Part shown: positions 1,163-9,306 of the stretch, piece after piece
Numbering within the stretch: position 1 is the stretch's first letter
How the letters are laid out: each line of letters opens with the position of its first letter
NCBI RefSeq assembly: GCF_020552705.1
Contig: NZ_JAJBZG010000001.1
Span: 248,001 to 312,000 of the forward strand
Source of the DNA: Christiangramia sediminis
Lineage (GTDB): Bacteria > Bacteroidota > Bacteroidia > Flavobacteriales > Flavobacteriaceae
Length of the DNA: 64,000 nt
Direction of reading: 5' to 3'
The notes under the pieces: generated by a model
The model's input: the letters and a program-made list of their open reading frames with translations, nothing else
Told to the model about the DNA's origin: nothing
Databases searched by the model: none
Program-made: the position numbers and the translations under genes

Positions 1163-1206
1163 GTAACAAAAGTTACTTCCTTAACTACACGATATTTATA
1201 TTTTTG
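1163..1206 (+). promoter_or_regulatory. Crp/Fnr-type palindrome plus -7 promoter element
   Basis: A perfect inverted repeat GTAAC-AAAA-GTTAC (1163-1176) is followed by TATTTTTG (1199-1206), an exact match to the Bacteroidota -7 consensus TAnnTTTG. The palindrome centre (1169.5) is 36.5 bp from the last base of the -7 box, so with a start site about 5 bp further it would lie near -41.5, where class II Crp/Fnr activators bind and replace the -33 contact. The same palindrome at the same distance occurs at 8270-8313. The regulator is unknown; function is inferred from the geometry. Confidence 0.6.
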
Positions 1207-1215
1207 TGTCAGAAT

Positions 1216-2121
1216 TTGAAAAGCCTGGAAAAGTATATAGACATAATAAGAGATTCCTTTACCGGATATTTTAATTACCTGGTAACAGAAATAACCCATC
1301 CCACATGGACGAGTTATTTTTACTGGCTTGTTGGTTTGTCTCTTTTAGTCTGGATTTTGGAAATAATTATACCCTGGAGAAAGGAACAAAAGGTATTTCG
1401 AAAAGGATTCTGGCTGGATAGCTTTTATATACTGTTCAATTTTTTCCTCTTTTCACTCATCGTTTATAATGCTTTGAGTAATGTAGGAGTTGAATTGTTC
1501 AATGATTTTCTTGGGCTTTTTGGAATTGAAAATATCGTTGCAATTCAATTAGGTAGTTTACCTGCCTGGACCCAGTTATTGATCATGTTCATTTTAGCAG
1601 ATTTTATTCAATGGAATGTTCATAGACAATTACATAAAAGACCATGGCTCTGGGAATTCCATAAGATACACCATAGTGTGAAAGAGATGGGATTTGCCGC
1701 TCAGTTCAGGTTTCACTTTATGGAAACCATTATTTATAAAACAGTGCAGTATATTCCGCTGGCAATGATTGGGTTTGGGATTAAGGAATTCTTTGTGGTG
1801 CATATGTTTGCAGTTTTTATCGGGCATCTTAATCATGCAAACCTGGGCTGGAATTATGGGGTATTAGGATATATTTTCAATAATCCGAGAATGCATATAT
1901 GGCATCATTCAAAAGATCTGCCTGAAGACAGACCTTACGGAATGAACTACGGCTTAAGCCTGAGTATCTGGGATTATATTTTCGGTACGGCCTATATTCC
2001 GGAAAGTGGTAAAAAAATAGAATTAGGATTCATCGGAGACGAGAATTTCCCGGAAGATTTCGGAAATCAAACCTTGTTTCCATTTATAAAGAAGAATAAA
2101 GTAAAGACAAATAAATTATAA
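1216..2121 (+). CDS. Sterol desaturase / fatty acid hydroxylase family membrane protein
   Basis: Integral membrane di-iron oxygenase of the fatty acid hydroxylase superfamily, about 300 residues. The histidine clusters expected for the di-iron centre are visible: HRQLH, HKIHH, a later HLNHAN and HIWHH. About four to five membrane segments precede and separate them (for example around the VGLSLLVWILEIIIP stretch). Substrate unknown (lipid or sterol-like). There is no ATG at the front: an upstream TTG at 1204 lies inside the -7 promoter box, so it cannot be translated, and I prefer the TTG at 1216, giving MKSLEKYIDII; this would make a nearly leaderless mRNA. The gene ends 12 bp before the persulfide dioxygenase gene and probably forms an operon with it, which hints at a link with sulfur or redox stress that the family itself does not explain. 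Confidence 0.8.
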   Translation: MKSLEKYIDIIRDSFTGYFNYLVTEITHPTWTSYFYWLVGLSLLVWILEIIIPWRKEQKVFRKGFWLDSFYILFNFFLFSLIVYNALSNVGVELFNDFLGLFGIENIVAIQLGSLPAWTQLLIMFILADFIQWNVHRQLHKRPWLWEFHKIHHSVKEMGFAAQFRFHFMETIIYKTVQYIPLAMIGFGIKEFFVVHMFAVFIGHLNHANLGWNYGVLGYIFNNPRMHIWHHSKDLPEDRPYGMNYGLSLSIWDYIFGTAYIPESGKKIELGFIGDENFPEDFGNQTLFPFIKKNKVKTNKL

Positions 2122-2133
2122 AAATCGAATAAA

Positions 2134-3471
2134 ATGACCATAAAACAATTTAAAGACGATCCGCTGGCGCATTATTCGTATGCTATTGTTAGCAACGGAG
2201 AAATGGCTCTTGTAGACCCTTCTCGTAACCCGATGGAATATTACAGATATGCCGAGGAGCAGAATGCTAAAATTGTAGCGGTTTTTGAAACGCATCCTCA
2301 TGCCGATTTTGTGAGCAGCCATATGCAAATACATGAAGAAACCGGGGCAACTATTTACGTTAGTGAGCTTTTAGGCGCAGATTATCCGCATAAAACTTTT
2401 GACGATGGTGATTCATTGACTCTGGGTGAGACCAAATTCAGTGCTATAAATACACCGGGACATTCTCCTGATAGTATTACTGTTGTGGCGAAAGAAGGAG
2501 ACAAAACAGCCTTGTTTACCGGAGATACACTTTTTATAGGAAATGTTGGAAGACCTGATCTACGTGAAAAGGCTGGAAATATGAAGGCTAAAAGAGTAGA
2601 CCTGGCTAAGCAGATGTATGACACGATAAAAAACAAATTTACAGACCTACCCGATGATGCTCTGGTATATCCAGCTCACGGTGCAGGATCGTTATGTGGA
2701 AAGAATATGAGCGACGCTGCTTCCAGTACTTTAGGAAATGAGCGCCAGGGGAACTGGGCTTTCAAAGAGCAGACTGAAGACGAATTCGTAGAAGAAATCC
2801 TGAAAGATCAGCCATTCATTCCGCATTATTTCGGATTTAACGTGGACATCAACAAAACCGGACCTGAAAATGTACAACGTACCAAATGGGCCAATAAATT
2901 GATGTTGAATGTTTCAGAAGTGGAAAAAGGAGTTGCCGTTGTTGATACCAGAGACGGAGATGACTTTAAAGCAGGACATCTGCCAAATAGTATCAATATC
3001 ATGGCCCGTTCAGAAAAGGATAAATATGAAACCTGGCTGGGAGCTATTATAAAGCCGAAGGAGGAATTTTACCTGGTACTGGACAGTGTGAATAATATTG
3101 AAGAATTACTGGAAAGAACAGCCAAGATAGGTTACGAAAAACAAGTAAAGGCTGTCATCACTTTAGGTTCCGGAGTTTCGAAGAAATCTGATGAGTTCGA
3201 TCTAGAAGATTTTAAAAAGAATAAAGGAAATTATACTATTGTTGATATCCGTAATCATAGCGAAGTTGCCGAAGGGAAGATCTTCGAGGATGCTATTGCC
3301 GTCCCGCTTAATGAACTCAGAGAGAATACGACTGAAATTCCATCACATAAACCTGTGGTAGTTCACTGTGCCGGCGGATATAGATCTGCTGCTGGAAGCA
3401 GTATTCTGGACAATAGATTCGAAAATACTAAAGTGTACGATCTTAGTGATGCCATCAATGATTTCAAATAA
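2134..3471 (+). CDS. Persulfide dioxygenase-sulfurtransferase fusion (CstB/ETHE1-like MBL + two rhodanese domains)
   Basis: Three-domain enzyme of 445 residues that handles sulfane sulfur. Residues 1 to about 245 form a metallo-beta-lactamase fold of the ETHE1 persulfide dioxygenase type, with the iron-binding motif HPHADF (His54, His56, Asp58) and His63, and the later GDTLFIGNVGRPDL and YPAHGAGS segments. Residues about 255-350 look like a rhodanese domain (VDTRDGDDFKAGHLPNS) but show no active-site cysteine loop. Residues about 350-445 are an active rhodanese with Cys412 in CAGGYRSAAG. This order matches Staphylococcus CstB, which oxidises low-molecular-weight persulfides to thiosulfate. 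It likely detoxifies sulfide-derived persulfides in the cytoplasm. Probable operon with the upstream hydroxylase gene under the 1163-1206 control region; a terminator follows. Confidence 0.9.
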   Translation: MTIKQFKDDPLAHYSYAIVSNGEMALVDPSRNPMEYYRYAEEQNAKIVAVFETHPHADFVSSHMQIHEETGATIYVSELLGADYPHKTFDDGDSLTLGETKFSAINTPGHSPDSITVVAKEGDKTALFTGDTLFIGNVGRPDLREKAGNMKAKRVDLAKQMYDTIKNKFTDLPDDALVYPAHGAGSLCGKNMSDAASSTLGNERQGNWAFKEQTEDEFVEEILKDQPFIPHYFGFNVDINKTGPENVQRTKWANKLMLNVSEVEKGVAVVDTRDGDDFKAGHLPNSINIMARSEKDKYETWLGAIIKPKEEFYLVLDSVNNIEELLERTAKIGYEKQVKAVITLGSGVSKKSDEFDLEDFKKNKGNYTIVDIRNHSEVAEGKIFEDAIAVPLNELRENTTEIPSHKPVVVHCAGGYRSAAGSSILDNRFENTKVYDLSDAINDFK

Positions 3472-3500
3472 TCTGGACTAAAAATCACTTTTTTAATATT

Positions 3501-3532
3501 AAACCCGGAATCTATGTTTCGGGTTTTTTTGT
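3501..3532 (+). terminator. Rho-independent terminator after persulfide dioxygenase gene
   Basis: Stem AAACCCGGAA / TTTCGGGTTT with a six-base loop, followed by a run of T. It closes the 1216-3471 operon. The rest of the gap to 3730 is AT-rich and ends with a weak -7-like TATATTTA at about 3684 for the carboxylase operon. Confidence 0.85.
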
Positions 3533-3729
3533 GGGTTAAATCAGGTTAGTCTGTATTCTATTTTTAATGCCTCACAAGAAATCCTAATTTCTAATATTGT
3601 CAAATTCTCAGAAATATCGATATTTTTTATTATTTCTCTAGATTTTGAGATTTCTGCAACACTTCAAACACCTTAATTTTTCTATATTTACGCTCCGACG
3701 TCAAAAAAATAACTATACATAAACCTTTT

Positions 3730-4215
3730 ATGGATAAGAACTACAAGGTTAAAGTGAACGACTCCCTGGAATTTGAATTTTCAGAAGAAGAAATTAAGTC
3801 ACTGGATACCCAAAAAACTTCCGATAGACATTATCATCTTTTAAAGGATAACCGATCCTACACAGCAGAAGTCTTTAAACCGGATTTTCTGAACAGAATC
3901 TACGAGATAAAGATCAACTCCAATATTTACTCCGTGAAGATCAATAATGATCTGGACCAGTTGATAGATGAGATGGGACTTTCGCTGGGAAGCTCTCAGC
4001 AGGTGAATGATATCAAGGCTCCTATGCCGGGTCTTATTCTGGAAGTGAACGTTAAGGAAGGTGATGAGGTAAAAGAAGGAGATTACCTTCTCGTACTGGA
4101 AGCGATGAAAATGGAGAATACTTTAACCGCGCCAAGAGACGGAGTGGTGAAATCTGTTACGGTAACTAAAAGTGATACGGTAGAAAAGAACCAGTTATTG
4201 ATAGAAATGGAATAA
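3730..4215 (+). CDS. Biotin carboxyl carrier protein of acyl-CoA carboxylase
   Basis: Biotinylated carrier subunit, 161 residues. The C-terminal 70 residues are a biotinyl domain (APMPGLILEVNVKEGDEV onward) with the biotin-attachment motif AMKM and Lys127 as the modified residue; a conserved proline-rich entry APMPG precedes it. The N-terminal half is the less conserved part seen in carriers of propionyl-CoA type carboxylases and contains no catalytic motif. It is the first of three consecutive genes (carrier, biotin carboxylase, carboxyltransferase) with gaps of 43 and 16 bp, so the three products form one holoenzyme. The ATG at 3730 is preceded by an AT-rich leader. Confidence 0.93.
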   Translation: MDKNYKVKVNDSLEFEFSEEEIKSLDTQKTSDRHYHLLKDNRSYTAEVFKPDFLNRIYEIKINSNIYSVKINNDLDQLIDEMGLSLGSSQQVNDIKAPMPGLILEVNVKEGDEVKEGDYLLVLEAMKMENTLTAPRDGVVKSVTVTKSDTVEKNQLLIEME

Positions 4216-4258
4216 TTCGAAATCTGAATCCAGAAGTACTAAGTTAGAACAAATTACA

Positions 4259-5701
4259 ATGAAAAAAATATTAGTAGCCAACAGGGGAGAAATCGCATTA
4301 AGAGTGATGAAAACCGTAAAACGTATGGGGATAGATACGGTGGCGGTTTATTCTACGGCCGACAGAAATGCACCTCATGTTAAGTTTGCAGACGAAGCTG
4401 TTTGTATCGGAGAAGCCCCTTCCAGCGAATCTTATCTAAAAGGTGATAAAATTATAGAAGTTGCCAGAAAGTTGAATGTTGACGGAATTCACCCGGGATA
4501 TGGTTTCCTGAGTGAGAATGCAAATTTTGCGGAATCTGTTGAAAAGAATGGAATTACCTGGATTGGCCCGGGTTCTAAAGCCATAAAAGTAATGGGAAGT
4601 AAGCTTGCCGCGAAAGATGCGGTAAAAGCTTATGATATCCCTATGGTTCCTGGAATTGATGAAGCGATCACCGATACCGAAAAAGCCAAGAAAATTGCTA
4701 AAGATATAGGATTCCCTATTTTGATAAAAGCTTCTGCCGGTGGCGGAGGTAAGGGAATGCGTATTGTTGAAAAAGAAAAAGAACTTGAAGATCAAATGAA
4801 GCGAGCGATTAGCGAAGCAGAATCTGCTTTTGGAGATGGTTCGGTTTTTATAGAAAAATATGTATCCTCCCCAAGACATATTGAAATACAGGTGCTGGCC
4901 GATACTCATGGCAACTATCTTCATTTGTTCGAAAGAGAATGTAGTATACAACGTAGACACCAGAAGGTAGTGGAAGAGGCTCCATCTGTAGTGCTGGATG
5001 ATGCTTTAAGAAAGGAAATGGGTGAAGCTGCGGTAAAGGTTGCCAAAGCCTGTGATTATGTTGGTGCAGGTACGGTAGAATTCCTTTTTGACGAGAACAG
5101 GAAATTCTATTTCCTGGAAATGAATACCAGACTTCAGGTAGAACATCCGGTAACCGAATATATCACGGGAGTTGATCTTGTAGAACAACAAATATTGGTA
5201 GCCAGGGGAGAACAACTTCAGTTTTCTCAGGAGGATTTAAAAATAAGAGGTCATGCGATGGAACTTCGGGTTTATGCCGAAGATCCTCTCGAAGATTTTA
5301 TGCCGAGTACCGGAACTCTGGAAAGATATGCCATTCCGGTAGGTGAAGGAATAAGGCTGGATAACGGTTTCGAAGAAGGGATGGAAGTTCCTATTTATTA
5401 CGACCCCATGCTTGCCAAGCTTATCACTTACGGTAAGACCAGGGAAGAAGCTATACAGATGATGATCAAGGCTATAGATCATTACATCGTGGAAGGCGTG
5501 AGCACTACTCTGCCTTTCGGAAAATTTGTATTTCAGCATGAAGCCTTCAGAAGTGGAAATTTCGATACTCATTTTGTAAAGAAATATTACTCTCCGGAAG
5601 CTTTGAAAGAGGAGACCGAAGAAGAAGCAAAACTCGCTGCCCTTATGGCTTTGAAGCAGTATATGAAAGATAAGGAGCAACTAAGATTACCACACAACTA
5701 A
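4259..5701 (+). CDS. accC: Acyl-CoA carboxylase, biotin carboxylase subunit
   Basis: ATP-dependent biotin carboxylase, 480 residues, full length for the stand-alone subunit. N-terminal pre-ATP-grasp domain ([14 protein letters not shown]), central ATP-grasp domain with the glycine-rich ATP loop [12 protein letters not shown] near residue 160 and the metal/bicarbonate motif [14 protein letters not shown] near residue 290, then the C-terminal biotin carboxylase domain ([13 protein letters not shown]). It charges the biotin on the carrier encoded just upstream with CO2. The acyl-CoA acceptor is set by the downstream carboxyltransferase; propionyl-CoA is the most usual one for this gene order in Bacteroidota. 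The last 25 residues are charged and helical. Confidence 0.93.
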
Positions 5702-5717
5702 AATTCAGAATTTAGAG

Positions 5718-7259
5718 ATGAGTCAGAACCTCGATAAATTAAAAGAAAAGATCGCAGAAGCCCACAAAGGTGGAGGTGAAAAAAGAATTGCCAAACAGCA
5801 CGAGAAGAAGAAATTGACTGCCCGTGAACGAGTGGAATATCTGTTGGATGAAAATTCATTTGAAGAAATTGGGATTTTAGTAACCCACCGCACCACCGAT
5901 TTTGGAATGGATAAACAAAAATTCTATGGTGATGGGGTAATTACCGGTTATGGAACCATTCATGGTCGCTTAGTCTATGTCTTTGCCCAGGATTTTACCG
6001 TTTTTGGTGGTTCACTTTCTGAAACCCATGCAGAAAAGATCTGTAAAGTGATGGACATGGCGGTAAAAGTAGGTGCTCCCATGATCGGTTTGAATGATTC
6101 AGGTGGTGCACGTATCCAGGAAGGTGTAAAGTCTCTTGGGGGTTATGCGGATATTTTTCATAGAAATGTAAAAGCTTCGGGGGTAATTCCTCAAATTTCA
6201 GCTATTATGGGACCATGCGCCGGTGGTGCAGTTTATTCTCCCGCGATGACAGATTTCACGCTCATGGTAGAGGACACATCTTATATGTTCGTAACCGGTC
6301 CCAATGTGGTGAAAACAGTGACCAATGAAGAAGTAACTTCCGAAGAACTTGGAGGTGCCAGCACACATTCCACTAAATCTGGGGTAACGCATGTTACCTC
6401 GGCCAATGATATTATTTGTCTTGAAAACATCAAGCAATTGATCAGCTACATGCCTCAGAACAATAAAACTGCTCCCGAAAAGCTTGAATTTGAATTGGGA
6501 GATGAACATCGTGAGGTTCTGGAGAATATCGTTCCCGATAGTTCTAACAAGCCTTATGACATGCATGAGGTTATAAAAGGAATTATAGATGATGATTCTT
6601 TCTTTGAGATCCATAAAAATTATGCTGAGAACATAATTGTTGGATTTTCCAGGATTGGAGGCCGCAGTGTAGGAGTGATCGCCAATCAGCCCATGAGCCT
6701 GGCCGGAGTTCTTGATGTGGATTCTTCTAAGAAAGCAGCAAGATTCACGAGATTCTGTGACTGTTTTAATATTCCGCTTTTGGTATTGGTAGATGTACCC
6801 GGATTCTTGCCGGGAACAGACCAGGAATGGAACGGGATCATTTTGCATGGTGCTAAGCTGCTTTATGCTTTAAGTGAGGCAACGGTGCCAAAAGTTACTG
6901 TTATCACGAGAAAAGCTTATGGAGGAGCTTATGATGTAATGAATTCCAAACATATTGGTGCCGACTTGAACTATGCCTGGCCAACTGCCGAGATCGCGGT
7001 AATGGGAGCCAAGGGAGCTTCAGAAATCATTTTCAGAAAAGAAATCGCTGAAGCTGCAGATCCTGAAAAGAAACTTGCAGAGAAAGAAGCGGAGTATGCC
7101 GAAAAATTCGCCACTCCATTTGAAGCCGCGCAAAGAGGTTTCATCGATGAGGTGATCATGCCGAAAGATACCCGAAGAAAGTTGATCAAGGCTTTTAGCG
7201 CGCTAGAAAACAAACATGTACTTCGGCCTAACAGAAAACACGGGAATATTCCGTTATAA
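5718..7259 (+). CDS. Acyl-CoA carboxylase carboxyltransferase (beta) subunit, propionyl-CoA carboxylase-like
   Basis: Carboxyltransferase of 513 residues with both crotonase-fold halves. The N-terminal half carries [11 protein letters not shown] and the oxyanion glycine pair in [12 protein letters not shown] and [11 protein letters not shown]; the C-terminal half carries [13 protein letters not shown] and the second glycine loop in [11 protein letters not shown]. These are hallmarks of PccB/MmdA-type enzymes that move CO2 from carboxybiotin to propionyl-CoA (giving methylmalonyl-CoA) or a similar acyl-CoA. No membrane decarboxylase subunits are nearby, so it is a soluble carboxylase rather than a sodium-pump decarboxylase. 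Last gene of the three-gene operon; a strong terminator follows 7 bp later. Confidence 0.93.
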
Positions 7260-7266
7260 ATTTTAT

Positions 7267-7294
7267 AGGCCGGAATTTATCCCGGCCTTTTTTA
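7267..7294 (+). terminator. Rho-independent terminator after carboxylase operon
   Basis: Stem AGGCCGG / CCGGCCT with an eight-base loop and a T tract. Ends the 3730-7259 transcript. Confidence 0.9.
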
Positions 7295-7305
7295 AGCATT
7301 AATGC

Positions 7306-7331
7306 GTCATGCTGAATTTATTTCAGCATCT
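7306..7331. repeat. Dispersed palindromic repeat (ATGCTGAA...TTCAGCAT type)
   Basis: Perfect inverted repeat ATGCTGAA (7309-7316) / TTCAGCAT (7322-7329) with a five-base spacer, framed by GTC and CTC. From memory, this GTCATGCTGAA...TTCAGCATCTC unit is a frequent intergenic repeat in flavobacterial genomes; the copy number here cannot be judged from one window. It sits between the carboxylase terminator and the next gene and contains an ATG that extends the next reading frame artificially. Confidence 0.6.
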
Positions 7332-7365
7332 CATAAAAATTCTATTAAGAAGATTAACGCTAACC

Positions 7366-8268
7366 ATGAAATTCAATAAAATAGTTTGTGTAGACAACAC
7401 TAAGTTAAACGACAAGGCGATCTCAGAATTGCAAAAGTTAAGCGAAGAAGAGGTTGAGGTTTATACAGATTATCCTGATTCTAAAGATGAGGTTATACAA
7501 CGAATCGGCAATGCAGAAGCAGTTATAGTTTCCTGGCATACCGAATTGGATGAAGACATCATCGAGGCTTGTTCAAATTTGAAATATATAGGAATGGCCT
7601 GTAGTCTATATGATGATGAGTCGGCCAATGTCGCCGTGAAATTTGCCAGGGAAAGAGGAATTACGGTAAAGGGAATCAAAGATTATGGGGACCCCGGAGT
7701 GGCAGAATTTATTATTTCAGAACTTATTCAATTACTGAATGGTTATAAAGGCAAACAATGGAAAGAAATGCCCCGGGAGCTAACAGATCTGAAAATTGGG
7801 ATTATTGGATTAGGAGTTACCGGAAAATTGCTGGCAAATTGCTTATTTCCATTTGGTGTAGATCTTTACTATTACAGTAATACCAGGAAAAACGAGTGGG
7901 AGGAGAAAGGACTTAAATATCTGGACTTAAATAAATTAATGAAAACCTGTGAATTTGTTTCCTTTCATTTACCAAAAAATGCCCAGCCGGTCGGGGAGGA
8001 TGAATTTAATAATTTCGGAAACGGAAAAATCCTTATCAACACCTCTCTGGGACTTCCCTTTGAAGAGAAGGCATTTGCAAATTGGATTAAAAATGATGCT
8101 AATTTTGCAATTTTTGATGGGGATGGAAAAAAGGAACTTTCCTTGGAAAGTCTAAATTCTGAAAATATTATCGCCCTGGAAAAAAGTGCGGGATGGTCTT
8201 CTCAGACGCTTGAAAGGTTATCAGAAAAAGTACTACAAAATATAAAAGCATATAGCGATAAAAGTTAG
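7366..8268 (+). CDS. D-isomer-specific 2-hydroxyacid dehydrogenase family protein
   Basis: NAD-dependent oxidoreductase of the phosphoglycerate/lactate dehydrogenase superfamily, 300 residues. The Rossmann nucleotide loop is IGIIGLGVTGKLLA in the middle of the chain, and the N-terminal part has the flavodoxin-like catalytic lobe. The usual catalytic Arg-Glu-His set is not clear: the C-terminal region reads NIIALEKSAGWSS where family members have a His near the Gly-Trp, so activity on hydroxyacids is uncertain. The frame is open from an ATG at 7309, but that ATG lies inside a palindromic repeat; the ATG at 7366 begins MKFNKIVCVDN, a normal N-terminus for the family. Appears monocistronic. Confidence 0.8.
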   Translation: MKFNKIVCVDNTKLNDKAISELQKLSEEEVEVYTDYPDSKDEVIQRIGNAEAVIVSWHTELDEDIIEACSNLKYIGMACSLYDDESANVAVKFARERGITVKGIKDYGDPGVAEFIISELIQLLNGYKGKQWKEMPRELTDLKIGIIGLGVTGKLLANCLFPFGVDLYYYSNTRKNEWEEKGLKYLDLNKLMKTCEFVSFHLPKNAQPVGEDEFNNFGNGKILINTSLGLPFEEKAFANWIKNDANFAIFDGDGKKELSLESLNSENIIALEKSAGWSSQTLERLSEKVLQNIKAYSDKS

Positions 8269-8269
8269 T

Positions 8270-8313
8270 GTAACCATTGTTACTGATTTCTGACTTCACA
8301 AATCGTTAATTTG
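8270..8313 (+). promoter_or_regulatory. Second Crp/Fnr-type palindrome plus -7-like element
   Basis: Perfect inverted repeat GTAAC-CATT-GTTAC (8270-8283), extended to TGTAACN4GTTACT as at 1163, followed by TTAATTTG (8306-8313), one mismatch from TAnnTTTG. Centre-to-box distance is again 36.5 bp. It starts 2 bp after the stop codon of the hydroxyacid dehydrogenase gene and serves the YeeE/YedE genes. A weak -7 box fits a promoter that needs an activator. Binding protein unknown. Confidence 0.6.
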
Positions 8314-8331: not shown

Positions 8332-8889
8332 ATGGAATTTATATTACAACCATGGCCCTGGTATGTTGCGGGACCACTAATAGCTTTAATAATGTTTCTT
8401 CTCATTTTTATGGGGAAACAATTCGGAATGTCTTCGAATCTTCGAACTATTTGTACCATGTGCGGGGCCGATGAGAAAGCAAGTTTTTTTGACTTTAACT
8501 GGCGTGCGCAAAAATGGAATCTTATTGTGATTGTTGGTGCAGCAATTGGTGGGTTTATTGCGATGAATTTTTTAACCGCAGATCCTGCGGTAGCAATCAA
8601 TCCGGAAACTGTGACTACACTTCAGGGACTTGGATTTGATAGTGCAGGCGAGGCTTACCTACCAGATGAACTTTATAGCCTGGAAGCTCTTACCGACTGG
8701 AAAGCTTTAAGTATTCTTATAATTGGTGGATTGTTAATAGGTTTTGGAGCAAGATGGGCAGGAGGATGTACTTCCGGACATGCGATCTCAGGTTTAAGTA
8801 ATTTACAGTTGCCATCTTTAATTGCGGTAACAGGATTCTTTATTGGCGGCCTGGTGATGGTTCATTTATTATTTCCCCTAATATTTTAG
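8332..8889 (+). CDS. YeeE/YedE family sulfur-compound transporter, larger half
   Basis: Membrane protein of 185 residues with about four to five helices, of the YeeE/YedE (DUF395) family. Long members of this family (TsuA/YeeE) import thiosulfate through conserved cysteines; in many Bacteroidota the protein is split in two genes, as here. The conserved cysteine loop GARWAGGCTSGHAISG is near residue 145, and an additional CTMCG pair occurs near residue 40. The partner gene begins 3 bp downstream. The shared promoter palindrome with the persulfide dioxygenase operon supports a role in uptake or export of sulfane sulfur or thiosulfate, but the transported compound is inference. Confidence 0.85.
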   Translation: MEFILQPWPWYVAGPLIALIMFLLIFMGKQFGMSSNLRTICTMCGADEKASFFDFNWRAQKWNLIVIVGAAIGGFIAMNFLTADPAVAINPETVTTLQGLGFDSAGEAYLPDELYSLEALTDWKALSILIIGGLLIGFGARWAGGCTSGHAISGLSNLQLPSLIAVTGFFIGGLVMVHLLFPLIF

Positions 8890-8892
8890 AAA

Positions 8893-9306
8893 ATGAGAGT
8901 AATAGCATATTTATTTATAGGTATATTTTTCGGAATCGTAATGTTCAAGTCTGAAGCCGCTTCGTGGTTCAGGATCTATGAGATGTTCCAGTTCCAGGCT
9001 TTCCATATGTACGGGATCATAGGTTCAGCTTTAATTCTTGGGGTGATTGGCATCCAGTTGATCAAGAAGAAACAAATGAAAGATCTTAATGGAGAGGAAA
9101 TTCAGTTTATTCCGAAGAAAAAAAGTTTTAGTCGTTATATGTTCGGCGGAATCATTTTCGGACTCGGATGGGCGTTGGCGGGTGCGTGCCCGGGACCAAT
9201 TTACACTCTTATCGGTGCAGGATATGTTTCGGTGATCGTGGTTTTCCTGGCCGCTATTTTGGGAACTTTTCTCTATGGTTTATTAAGGGATAAACTTCCA
9301 CATTAA
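8893..9306 (+). CDS. YeeE/YedE (DUF6691) family transporter, smaller half
   Basis: Membrane protein of 137 residues with four predicted helices, the second half of the split YeeE/YedE-type transporter. The conserved cysteine motif is GWALAGACPGPIYTLIG in the third helix, matching the GG-C-x-G motif of the partner. The start is 3 bp after the stop of the upstream gene, so the two are co-translated and probably form a complex in the inner membrane. A strong bidirectional terminator follows. Confidence 0.85.
   Translation: MRVIAYLFIGIFFGIVMFKSEAASWFRIYEMFQFQAFHMYGIIGSALILGVIGIQLIKKKQMKDLNGEEIQFIPKKKSFSRYMFGGIIFGLGWALAGACPGPIYTLIGAGYVSVIVVFLAAILGTFLYGLLRDKLPH

Follow-up and report, generated by a model that had tools for sequence, protein, structure and literature searches.

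Within a 64,000-nucleotide stretch of the Christiangramia sediminis genome (hereafter the window, G000:C2:248001-312000 in a genome of 3.25 Mb on five contigs), two copies of the palindrome GTAACN4GTTAC stand at the same distance from a -7 promoter element, one before a hydroxylase-type gene and a metallo-beta-lactamase/rhodanese gene and the other before a split YeeE/YedE transporter pair. As judged from sequence comparison, these palindromes are very likely the sites of one class II Crp/Fnr activator for sulfide and persulfide stress genes. Such a shared regulon had been proposed in an earlier sequence-only reading, and it is supported here by the recurrence of the palindrome before the same gene types, by its constant spacing, and by a palindrome type that, beside the regulator gene, follows residue 183 of the candidate regulator. 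This candidate, a 210-amino acid (aa) Crp-type protein encoded ~9 kb to the left of the window, very probably turns on these promoters, here and in many related bacteria, and the comparisons below point strongly to its binding the sites and activating from them.

A palindrome at a fixed distance from the -7 element

Both window copies are flanked by T on either side, and their centres (1169.5 and 8276.5) each lie 36.5 bp from the last base of a -7 element (ending at 1206 and 8313; Table 1), which reproduces the positions and the spacing of the sequence-only reading to the half base. Taken alone, the number of palindromes in the window departs only mildly from expectation: a scan tolerating one mismatch returned three matches, all perfect, where 0.74 were expected, and three or more turned up in 6 of 100 shuffles. 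Across the genome there are 11 copies, 6 in open reading frames (ORFs) and 5 intergenic, compared with 3.7 expected from the base composition of the window and 5 in a reversed-letter control. Palindrome counts alone, in the window as in the genome, are thus weak evidence, and the strong evidence is the fixed spacing together with the comparative data. Four of the 11 copies, all intergenic, have TAnnTTTG at a 22 bp gap (2 exact, 2 with one mismatch), and the chance of four or more copies so spaced is ~3e-5 under a simple model. Two of the four are sites beyond the window, before the TauE and SoxB-like operons, and four of the five intergenic sites head sulfur operons, contrary to a palindrome scattered at random with no link to sulfur. 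The third window copy, inside a coding sequence, was treated as background, as were the five other ORF copies of the genome; with three mismatches allowed, the pattern matched 29 places against 68 in the control, and nothing beyond one mismatch was therefore used.

A contig scan gave 136 relatives, of which the best 80 were kept as ortholog loci (1.50 Mb of DNA, nearly all from named Flavobacteriaceae or genera of that family). In these loci GTAACN4GTTAC occurs 176 times, spread over 69 of the 80, whereas palindromes of the same form made from other 5-mers of the same letters occur at most 6 times each and a half-reversed control 3 times; the comparison is limited to same-letter 5-mers because palindromes built of A and T alone (AAAAA 91, TTTTT 83, among others) outnumber the remaining ones that contain G or C. 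The spacer is equally specific, with 176 copies at a length of 4 and 0-5 at each of the lengths 0-3 and 5-10. ORFs of at least 80 aa cover 87% of this DNA, and 166 of the 176 palindromes lie outside ORFs. At 93 of these 166, and at 7 of the 10 in called ORFs, a TAnnTTTG ends 36.5 bp from the centre (the next commonest distance counts 2), although the 80 loci share ancestry and the sites are not independent. The four spacer bases of the palindrome are of 43 kinds and the 22-bp spacer is nearly free of base preference past its first bases, so it is the motif and the spacing that have been kept, and not the surrounding DNA.

In a sample selected independently of gene context, 296 genomes spread evenly over the phylum, the 44-bp pattern of palindrome, spacer and -7 element has 54 sites in 26 genomes and the reversed pattern has none. 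All 26 genomes belong to the class of the window (73 genomes), and the pattern is present in 16 of the 30 genomes of its family. That the palindromes are there by chance might be read from the genome (11 against 3.7 expected, 6 of them inside ORFs), but the 176 sites against at most 6 for same-letter 5-mers already refute this, and the 54 sites against none in the phylum scan, the linkage to gene types and the exact common spacing leave chance a negligible probability.

Promoter architecture

The consensus of the sites reads TGTAAC, an A/T-rich N4, GTTAC-T-G, and then TA-N2-TTTG. The TTTG of a -33 element is nearly absent from the spacer (7 TTTG among 97 distinct sites, at six offsets), while a weak TG persists beside the palindrome and may be a remnant of that element. 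A class II Crp/Fnr promoter has its site centred near -41.5 from the transcription start. In the proposed mechanism, a homodimer of the 210-aa protein would bind TGTAAC-N4-GTTACTG centred at ~-41.5 from the predicted transcription start, where a -33 element would otherwise lie, and would recruit RNA polymerase to the bare -7 element (TAnnTTTG) by class II activation.

The same protein could instead repress from these sites, which we regard as improbable. Repression would suit the fifth intergenic site, which lacks the -7 spacing and stands 35-36 bp ahead of the start codon (ATG) of a 136-aa gene; this holds for the C. sediminis genome and for all 5 Christiangramia loci in which that gene is present. 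On the other side, the palindrome keeps a constant 36.5 bp from the -7 element without overlapping it, the spacer contains hardly any TTTG of a -33 element, and repressor sites usually vary in position, all of which speak for activation. The unspaced palindrome before the 136-aa gene, whose product has no Pfam match, may reflect repression or another promoter.

Genes that follow the palindrome

In the ortholog loci, we asked which gene matches have a palindrome within 250 bp on their 5' side. This is so for 34 of 38 TauE matches, for 40 of 51 of the persulfide dioxygenase (PDO) type (many of them at 33-44% identity), for 15 of 19 usable matches of the first YeeE half, and for 12 of 26 usable matches of the hydroxylase type, some of which are distant homologs. 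The 136-aa gene (5/5) and an aldo/keto reductase gene (3/3) also have it, the latter diverging from the hydroxylase gene with a common upstream region, and the Crp gene itself has it in 6 of 84 cases. By the same test, the palindrome is found upstream of none of the second genes (0 of 17 usable matches for the second YeeE half, 0/12 for CydB), and of neither the nitroreductase (0/5) nor the SoxB-like, DoxX and DsrE-like genes (together 0/4); among other ORFs of the loci the figure is 53 of 1023. Conservation of the palindrome upstream of the same gene types, in many genera and at the same spacing, often beside an orthologous Crp/Fnr gene, is the outcome on which the sequence-only reading had staked its proposal. 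The cydA and cydB genes follow the TauE gene in the C. sediminis genome, and bd oxidases are often sulfide-tolerant; the bd oxidase was rejected as a core target because the palindrome lies upstream of only 2 of 16 CydA matches.

A tally by Pfam domain at sites with the exact architecture (92 of 100 sites, those having within 250 bp an ORF that starts with ATG and is 80 aa or longer, some ORFs being truncated at the 5' end) is led by Lactamase_B (33), Rhodanese (33) and TauE (28), followed by FA_hydroxylase (8), DUF983 (7), Sulfate_transp (4), OEP (4), Tll0287 (3), and one each of Pyr_redox_2, Crp and cytochrome c. The persulfide operon of the window opens with the hydroxylase-type gene, and such a gene follows 8 of the 92 sites. 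Downstream of the phylum-scan sites, we read 29 frames standing for 30 of the 54 sites (two duplicate L131 frames were dropped, and L106 has no ORF of 80 aa). They comprise Rhodanese (8) and Lactamase_B (6), which we read as the same proteins, OEP of the TolC type (8), TauE (3), DUF983 (2), and one each of Sulfate_transp, YeeE type, Pyr_redox_2, redoxin, Tll0287 and Prismane, with two lacking a match. TolC-type efflux genes (L112, L115, L116, L118, L120, L121, L123, L129) equal rhodanese in frequency after the site (8/29 each), which suggests an export branch of the regulon.

In C. sediminis, the regulon would consist of the TauE/SafE exporter, the hydroxylase-PDO/rhodanese genes, the split YeeE/YedE pair and the DoxX/DsrE/SoxB-like operon. 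The protein encoded at 2134..3471 is termed PDO-like on account of its domains, every matching NCBIfam model being below its cut-off, and the SoxB-like metallophosphatase scores 260.5 bits, under the SoxB cut-off of 550. The TTG start at 1204 of the hydroxylase-type gene overlaps the -7 element, so the true start probably lies further in, for example at TTG 1216.

Table 1. Coordinates of the palindromes, -7 elements and genes; positions lacking a prefix are those of the window.
Feature	Position	Strand	Remark
Palindrome 1, GTAACAAAAGTTAC	1163..1176	+	Predicted Crp/Fnr site, centre ~-41.5
Palindrome 2, GTAACCATTGTTAC	8270..8283	+	Predicted Crp/Fnr site
-7 element, TATTTTTG	1199..1206	+	22 bp past palindrome 1; exact fit to GTAACN4GTTACN22TAnnTTTG
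-7 element, TTAATTTG	8306..8313	+	22 bp past palindrome 2; one base off TAnnTTTG
Third GTAACN4GTTAC	6384..6397	+	Within carboxyltransferase gene
Site (a)	C2:239198		Between Crp/Fnr gene and TauE/SafE exporter gene
Site (b)	1163		Before hydroxylase-type and metallo-beta-lactamase/rhodanese genes
Site (c)	8270		Before split YeeE/YedE pair
Site (d)	C3:56598		Before 119-aa protein, DoxX, weak DsrE-like protein, SoxB-like metallophosphatase
Fifth intergenic site	C2:247600 (L018:17601-17614)		36 bp before ATG of 136-aa gene (L018:17637-18047)
Candidate regulator, 210 aa	G000:C2:238556-239188		Adjoins site (a) and TauE gene
cydA, cydB	L018:10574-12918		Follow TauE gene
Fatty acid hydroxylase-type protein	1204..2121	+	First operon gene; PF04116, 102.4 bits
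Metallo-beta-lactamase and rhodanese protein, PDO-like	2134..3471	+	PF00753 and PF00581 over cut-off; two rhodanese stretches
YeeE/YedE half-transporter, first half	8332..8889	+	PF04143, 58.9 bits
YeeE/YedE half-transporter, second half	8893..9306	+

The candidate regulator

The genome encodes six proteins with a cyclic nucleoside monophosphate (cNMP) domain. The candidate among them, placed outside the window as the sequence-only reading had anticipated, combines a cNMP_binding domain with a Crp-type helix-turn-helix and belongs to the Crp/Fnr superfamily (PF00027, 39.3 bits; PF13545, 40.4 bits; both over cut-off). It falls outside the cyclic AMP-CRP equivalog family, with 55.8 bits against an NCBIfam cut-off of 266 and Met at the place of CRP Glu72 in 81 of 81 proteins, and outside NtcA, with 49.1 bits against 244.95. 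An FNR-type [4Fe-4S] cluster needs four cysteines, and the protein has just three (Cys77, Cys83 and Cys84). An AlphaFold2 model of the L026 ortholog, which is that of Christiangramia gaetbulicola (mean pLDDT 88.3, pTM 0.65), matches Crp/Fnr structures.

Presence of the regulator and of the promoter pattern can be compared in the 73 genomes of the window's class. The full pattern occurs in 21 of 24 genomes with a close ortholog (E <=4.5e-57, a cut chosen after both lists were seen) and in 5 of 49 others (Fisher 9e-11), or in 20 of 23 and 6 of 50 with the borderline G162 moved (p 7e-10), both p-values being too optimistic since the genomes are related. The bare 14-base palindrome is a poor genome marker (mean 6.5 in the 24 genomes vs 4.9 in the 49, rank test p 0.01), with a reversed control that is larger in most genomes; it is the pattern with the -7 element that separates them.

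A different Crp/Fnr protein of the same genome might bind the sites, given the six cNMP-domain proteins and the presence of the motif in some genomes with no close ortholog. We hold this to be very improbable, as the 210-aa protein adjoins a site, none of the other five proteins has its SRV recognition helix in the translations read, and the palindrome type beside the gene tracks residue 183 of the candidate across its homologs.

Recognition helix and half-site

Residue 183, which aligns with CRP Glu181 and with an NtcA Val, is Val in 81 of 81 close orthologs. The 73 genomes gave 80 homolog matches, 68 of which were read (the 12 left out include 8 of genus g2 and one distant paralog from C. 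sediminis); these 68, the C. sediminis protein included, have Val in 33, Glu in 34 and Ala in 1. Within 400 bp of the Crp gene, in 148 loci, GTAACN4GTTAC accompanies 67 of 113 Val183 proteins and GTGAYN4RTCAC none, whereas for Glu183 the GTAAC form is absent and GTGAY accompanies 16 of 34. The 68 homologs alone divide in the same way (Val, 9 GTAAC and 0 GTGAY; Glu, 0 and 16), and the rule is visible in a single pair of sister proteins, L185 (Val, GTAAC) and L189 (Glu, GTGAC). At the same spacing, the GTGAY pattern has 26 sites in 18 of the 73 genomes (control 1), and these head rhodanese (5/26), Lactamase_B (4), AhpC (3), TauE (1) and sulfate permease (1) genes, among others.

Position 4 of the half-site is A here and G in the CRP site. 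Ebright and co-workers are said to have found that changing Glu181 of CAP to Val or Leu alters exactly this half-site position. In CRP, the G4:C4 pair is read by Glu181 together with Arg185, according to the excerpted text of PMC11253593.

Cysteines and the likely signal

Among the 81 proteins, Cys77 and Cys83 are each conserved in 81 and Cys84 in 78; they align with CRP Ile70, Phe76 and Glu77, in the phosphate-binding cassette. In 68 of the 68 homologs read, Cys77 is kept. Cys84 is not a strict marker of the motif, as L067 (Thr) and L075 (Ser) still have sites. The place of the ribose-binding Glu72 of CRP is taken by Met79 (81/81) and that of Arg82 by Lys89 (75/81), which makes cyclic AMP binding as in CRP unlikely.

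The sequence-only reading had left the signal among sulfide, persulfide, nitrosative and oxygen cues, and gene content favours the sulfide/persulfide part of that list. The most likely signal would be persulfide or polysulfide arising from sulfide, which Cys77 and Cys83, joined by Cys84, would sense where the cyclic-nucleotide pocket used to be; a persulfide thiol switch through Cys77 and Cys83 is, on cysteine conservation, a proposal to which we give slightly less than an even chance. An unlikely alternative, which we nevertheless take seriously, keeps the same regulator and sites and has sulfur genes downstream of another signal, be it nitric oxide or heme (HcpR/DNR-like), oxygen, or a small ligand. 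Membership of the Crp/Fnr family is in keeping with it, as are a hybrid cluster protein gene (1 of the 29 phylum-scan frames), Tll0287-type targets (1 of the 29 frames and 3 of the 92 ortholog-locus sites) and DNR as a distant match among solved structures. However, the hybrid cluster protein site sits in G238, a genome with no Crp match at 1e-10, the ortholog-locus targets are mostly PDO/rhodanese and TauE, and three cysteines are too few for the four-cysteine FNR-type cluster.

The persulfide reading can be widened into a more tentative whole, to which we give a chance somewhat below even: that a Crp/Fnr-type persulfide sensor, its cyclic-nucleotide pocket turned into a Cys77-Cys83/84 switch, acts in many Flavobacteriaceae as the master activator of genes for sulfide, persulfide and thiosulfate, and that the wider family swapped Val and Glu several times, with the palindromes changing between GTAAC and GTGAY along the way. 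Several observations weigh against the main reading, that of one Crp/Fnr activator acting from these sites and sensing persulfide. On the side of the protein, Cys83 and Cys84 are not kept in many distant homologs, and the cysteine loop has the lowest block means of the AlphaFold2 model (70 and 66). On the side of the sites, the palindrome is absent from the covered DNA of 11 of the 80 ortholog loci, the palindrome before the 136-aa gene (C2:247600) lacks the -7 spacing, and the full pattern is missing from 3 of the 24 genomes with a close ortholog and present in 5 of the 49 without one. Two of those five, G230 and G238, lack any Crp match at 1e-10, and in G238 the site (L105) precedes the hybrid cluster protein gene; another Crp/Fnr protein can thus use the motif, and in G238 this may be an HcpR-like protein.

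The Val/Glu rule is likewise open to objection. It was suggested by the same loci before they were counted, and GTGAY/RTCAC is the more permissive pattern. On a tree of 88 rows (the 68 homologs and every fourth of the 80 close orthologs), changes between Val and Glu are few, at least 4, with 2 independent pairs on well supported branches, both of which agree with the rule; a sign test on independent changes was dropped for want of pairs. Full GTAAC sites are carried by three genomes in which the homolog read has Glu183 (G162, G154 and G099, with 2, 1 and 1 sites), and full GTGAY sites by six in which it has Val183 (G007, G041, G053, G107, G182 and G226), some genomes holding several such regulators of which part were read. 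The rule is clean only beside the gene, and not genome-wide.

Relation to known regulators

When compared to E. coli CRP, the candidate has the same domains and a site of identical length and spacing (TGTAA-N6-TTACA vs TGTGA-N6-TCACA), and its Arg182, Val183 and Arg187 align with CRP Arg180, Glu181 and Arg185. The differences are the change of Glu181 to Val, of half-site G4 to A and of Glu72 to Met, and a score far under the CRP cut-off. Cyanobacterial NtcA is the second best solved-structure match by sequence profile and has Val at the same helix position. NtcA senses 2-oxoglutarate and nitrogen status, and its site, GTA-N8-TAC at ~22 bp from the -10 box, is contained in GTAACN4GTTAC. NtcA differs from the candidate in having no cysteine opposite Cys77, Cys83 or Cys84 in the printed alignment, and the score is again under the cut-off. 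The best solved match, both by sequence and by Foldseek E-value (TM-score 0.53), is chain A of 3dv8, a Crp/Fnr protein of Eubacterium rectale with cysteines at the places of Cys77 and Cys83 in the alignment; it differs in its Arg-Glu recognition helix (HREVITR) and is listed as a putative regulator with no function given.

HcpR of Bacteroides and Porphyromonas is a Crp/Fnr protein. It regulates hcp in Bacteroidota, where one hcp promoter (that of G238) shows the same pattern, but it differs in binding heme and responding to nitrosative stress, as described in PMC13370916. Cysteine chemistry controls sulfide and persulfide oxidation genes through SqrR/BigR (ArsR family), CstR (CsoR family) and FisR (sigma54), which are of other protein families, SqrR and CstR being termed repressors (excerpts of PMC9774590 and PMC11211675). 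The sulfane-sulfur regulators named in those excerpts are FisR, SqrR, BigR, CstR, OxyR, CsoR and MarR-type proteins, with none of the Crp/Fnr family among them (PMC9774590, PMC11211675).

A search of the open-access literature on Crp or YeeE/YedE together with sulfur returned no named regulator for these genes, though regulon collections or subscription papers may hold one; the regulon is likely but not proven to be new.

Significance

Seawater and sediment commonly harbour Flavobacteriaceae, and in many of the members read here sulfide-handling genes stand behind this promoter. If the proposal is true, one protein and one 44-bp promoter grammar would allow the response to sulfide to be predicted in many genera from their genome sequences, and the Crp/Fnr family would join the known persulfide sensors. 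The recognition code of CRP at position 181 would also be put to a natural test.

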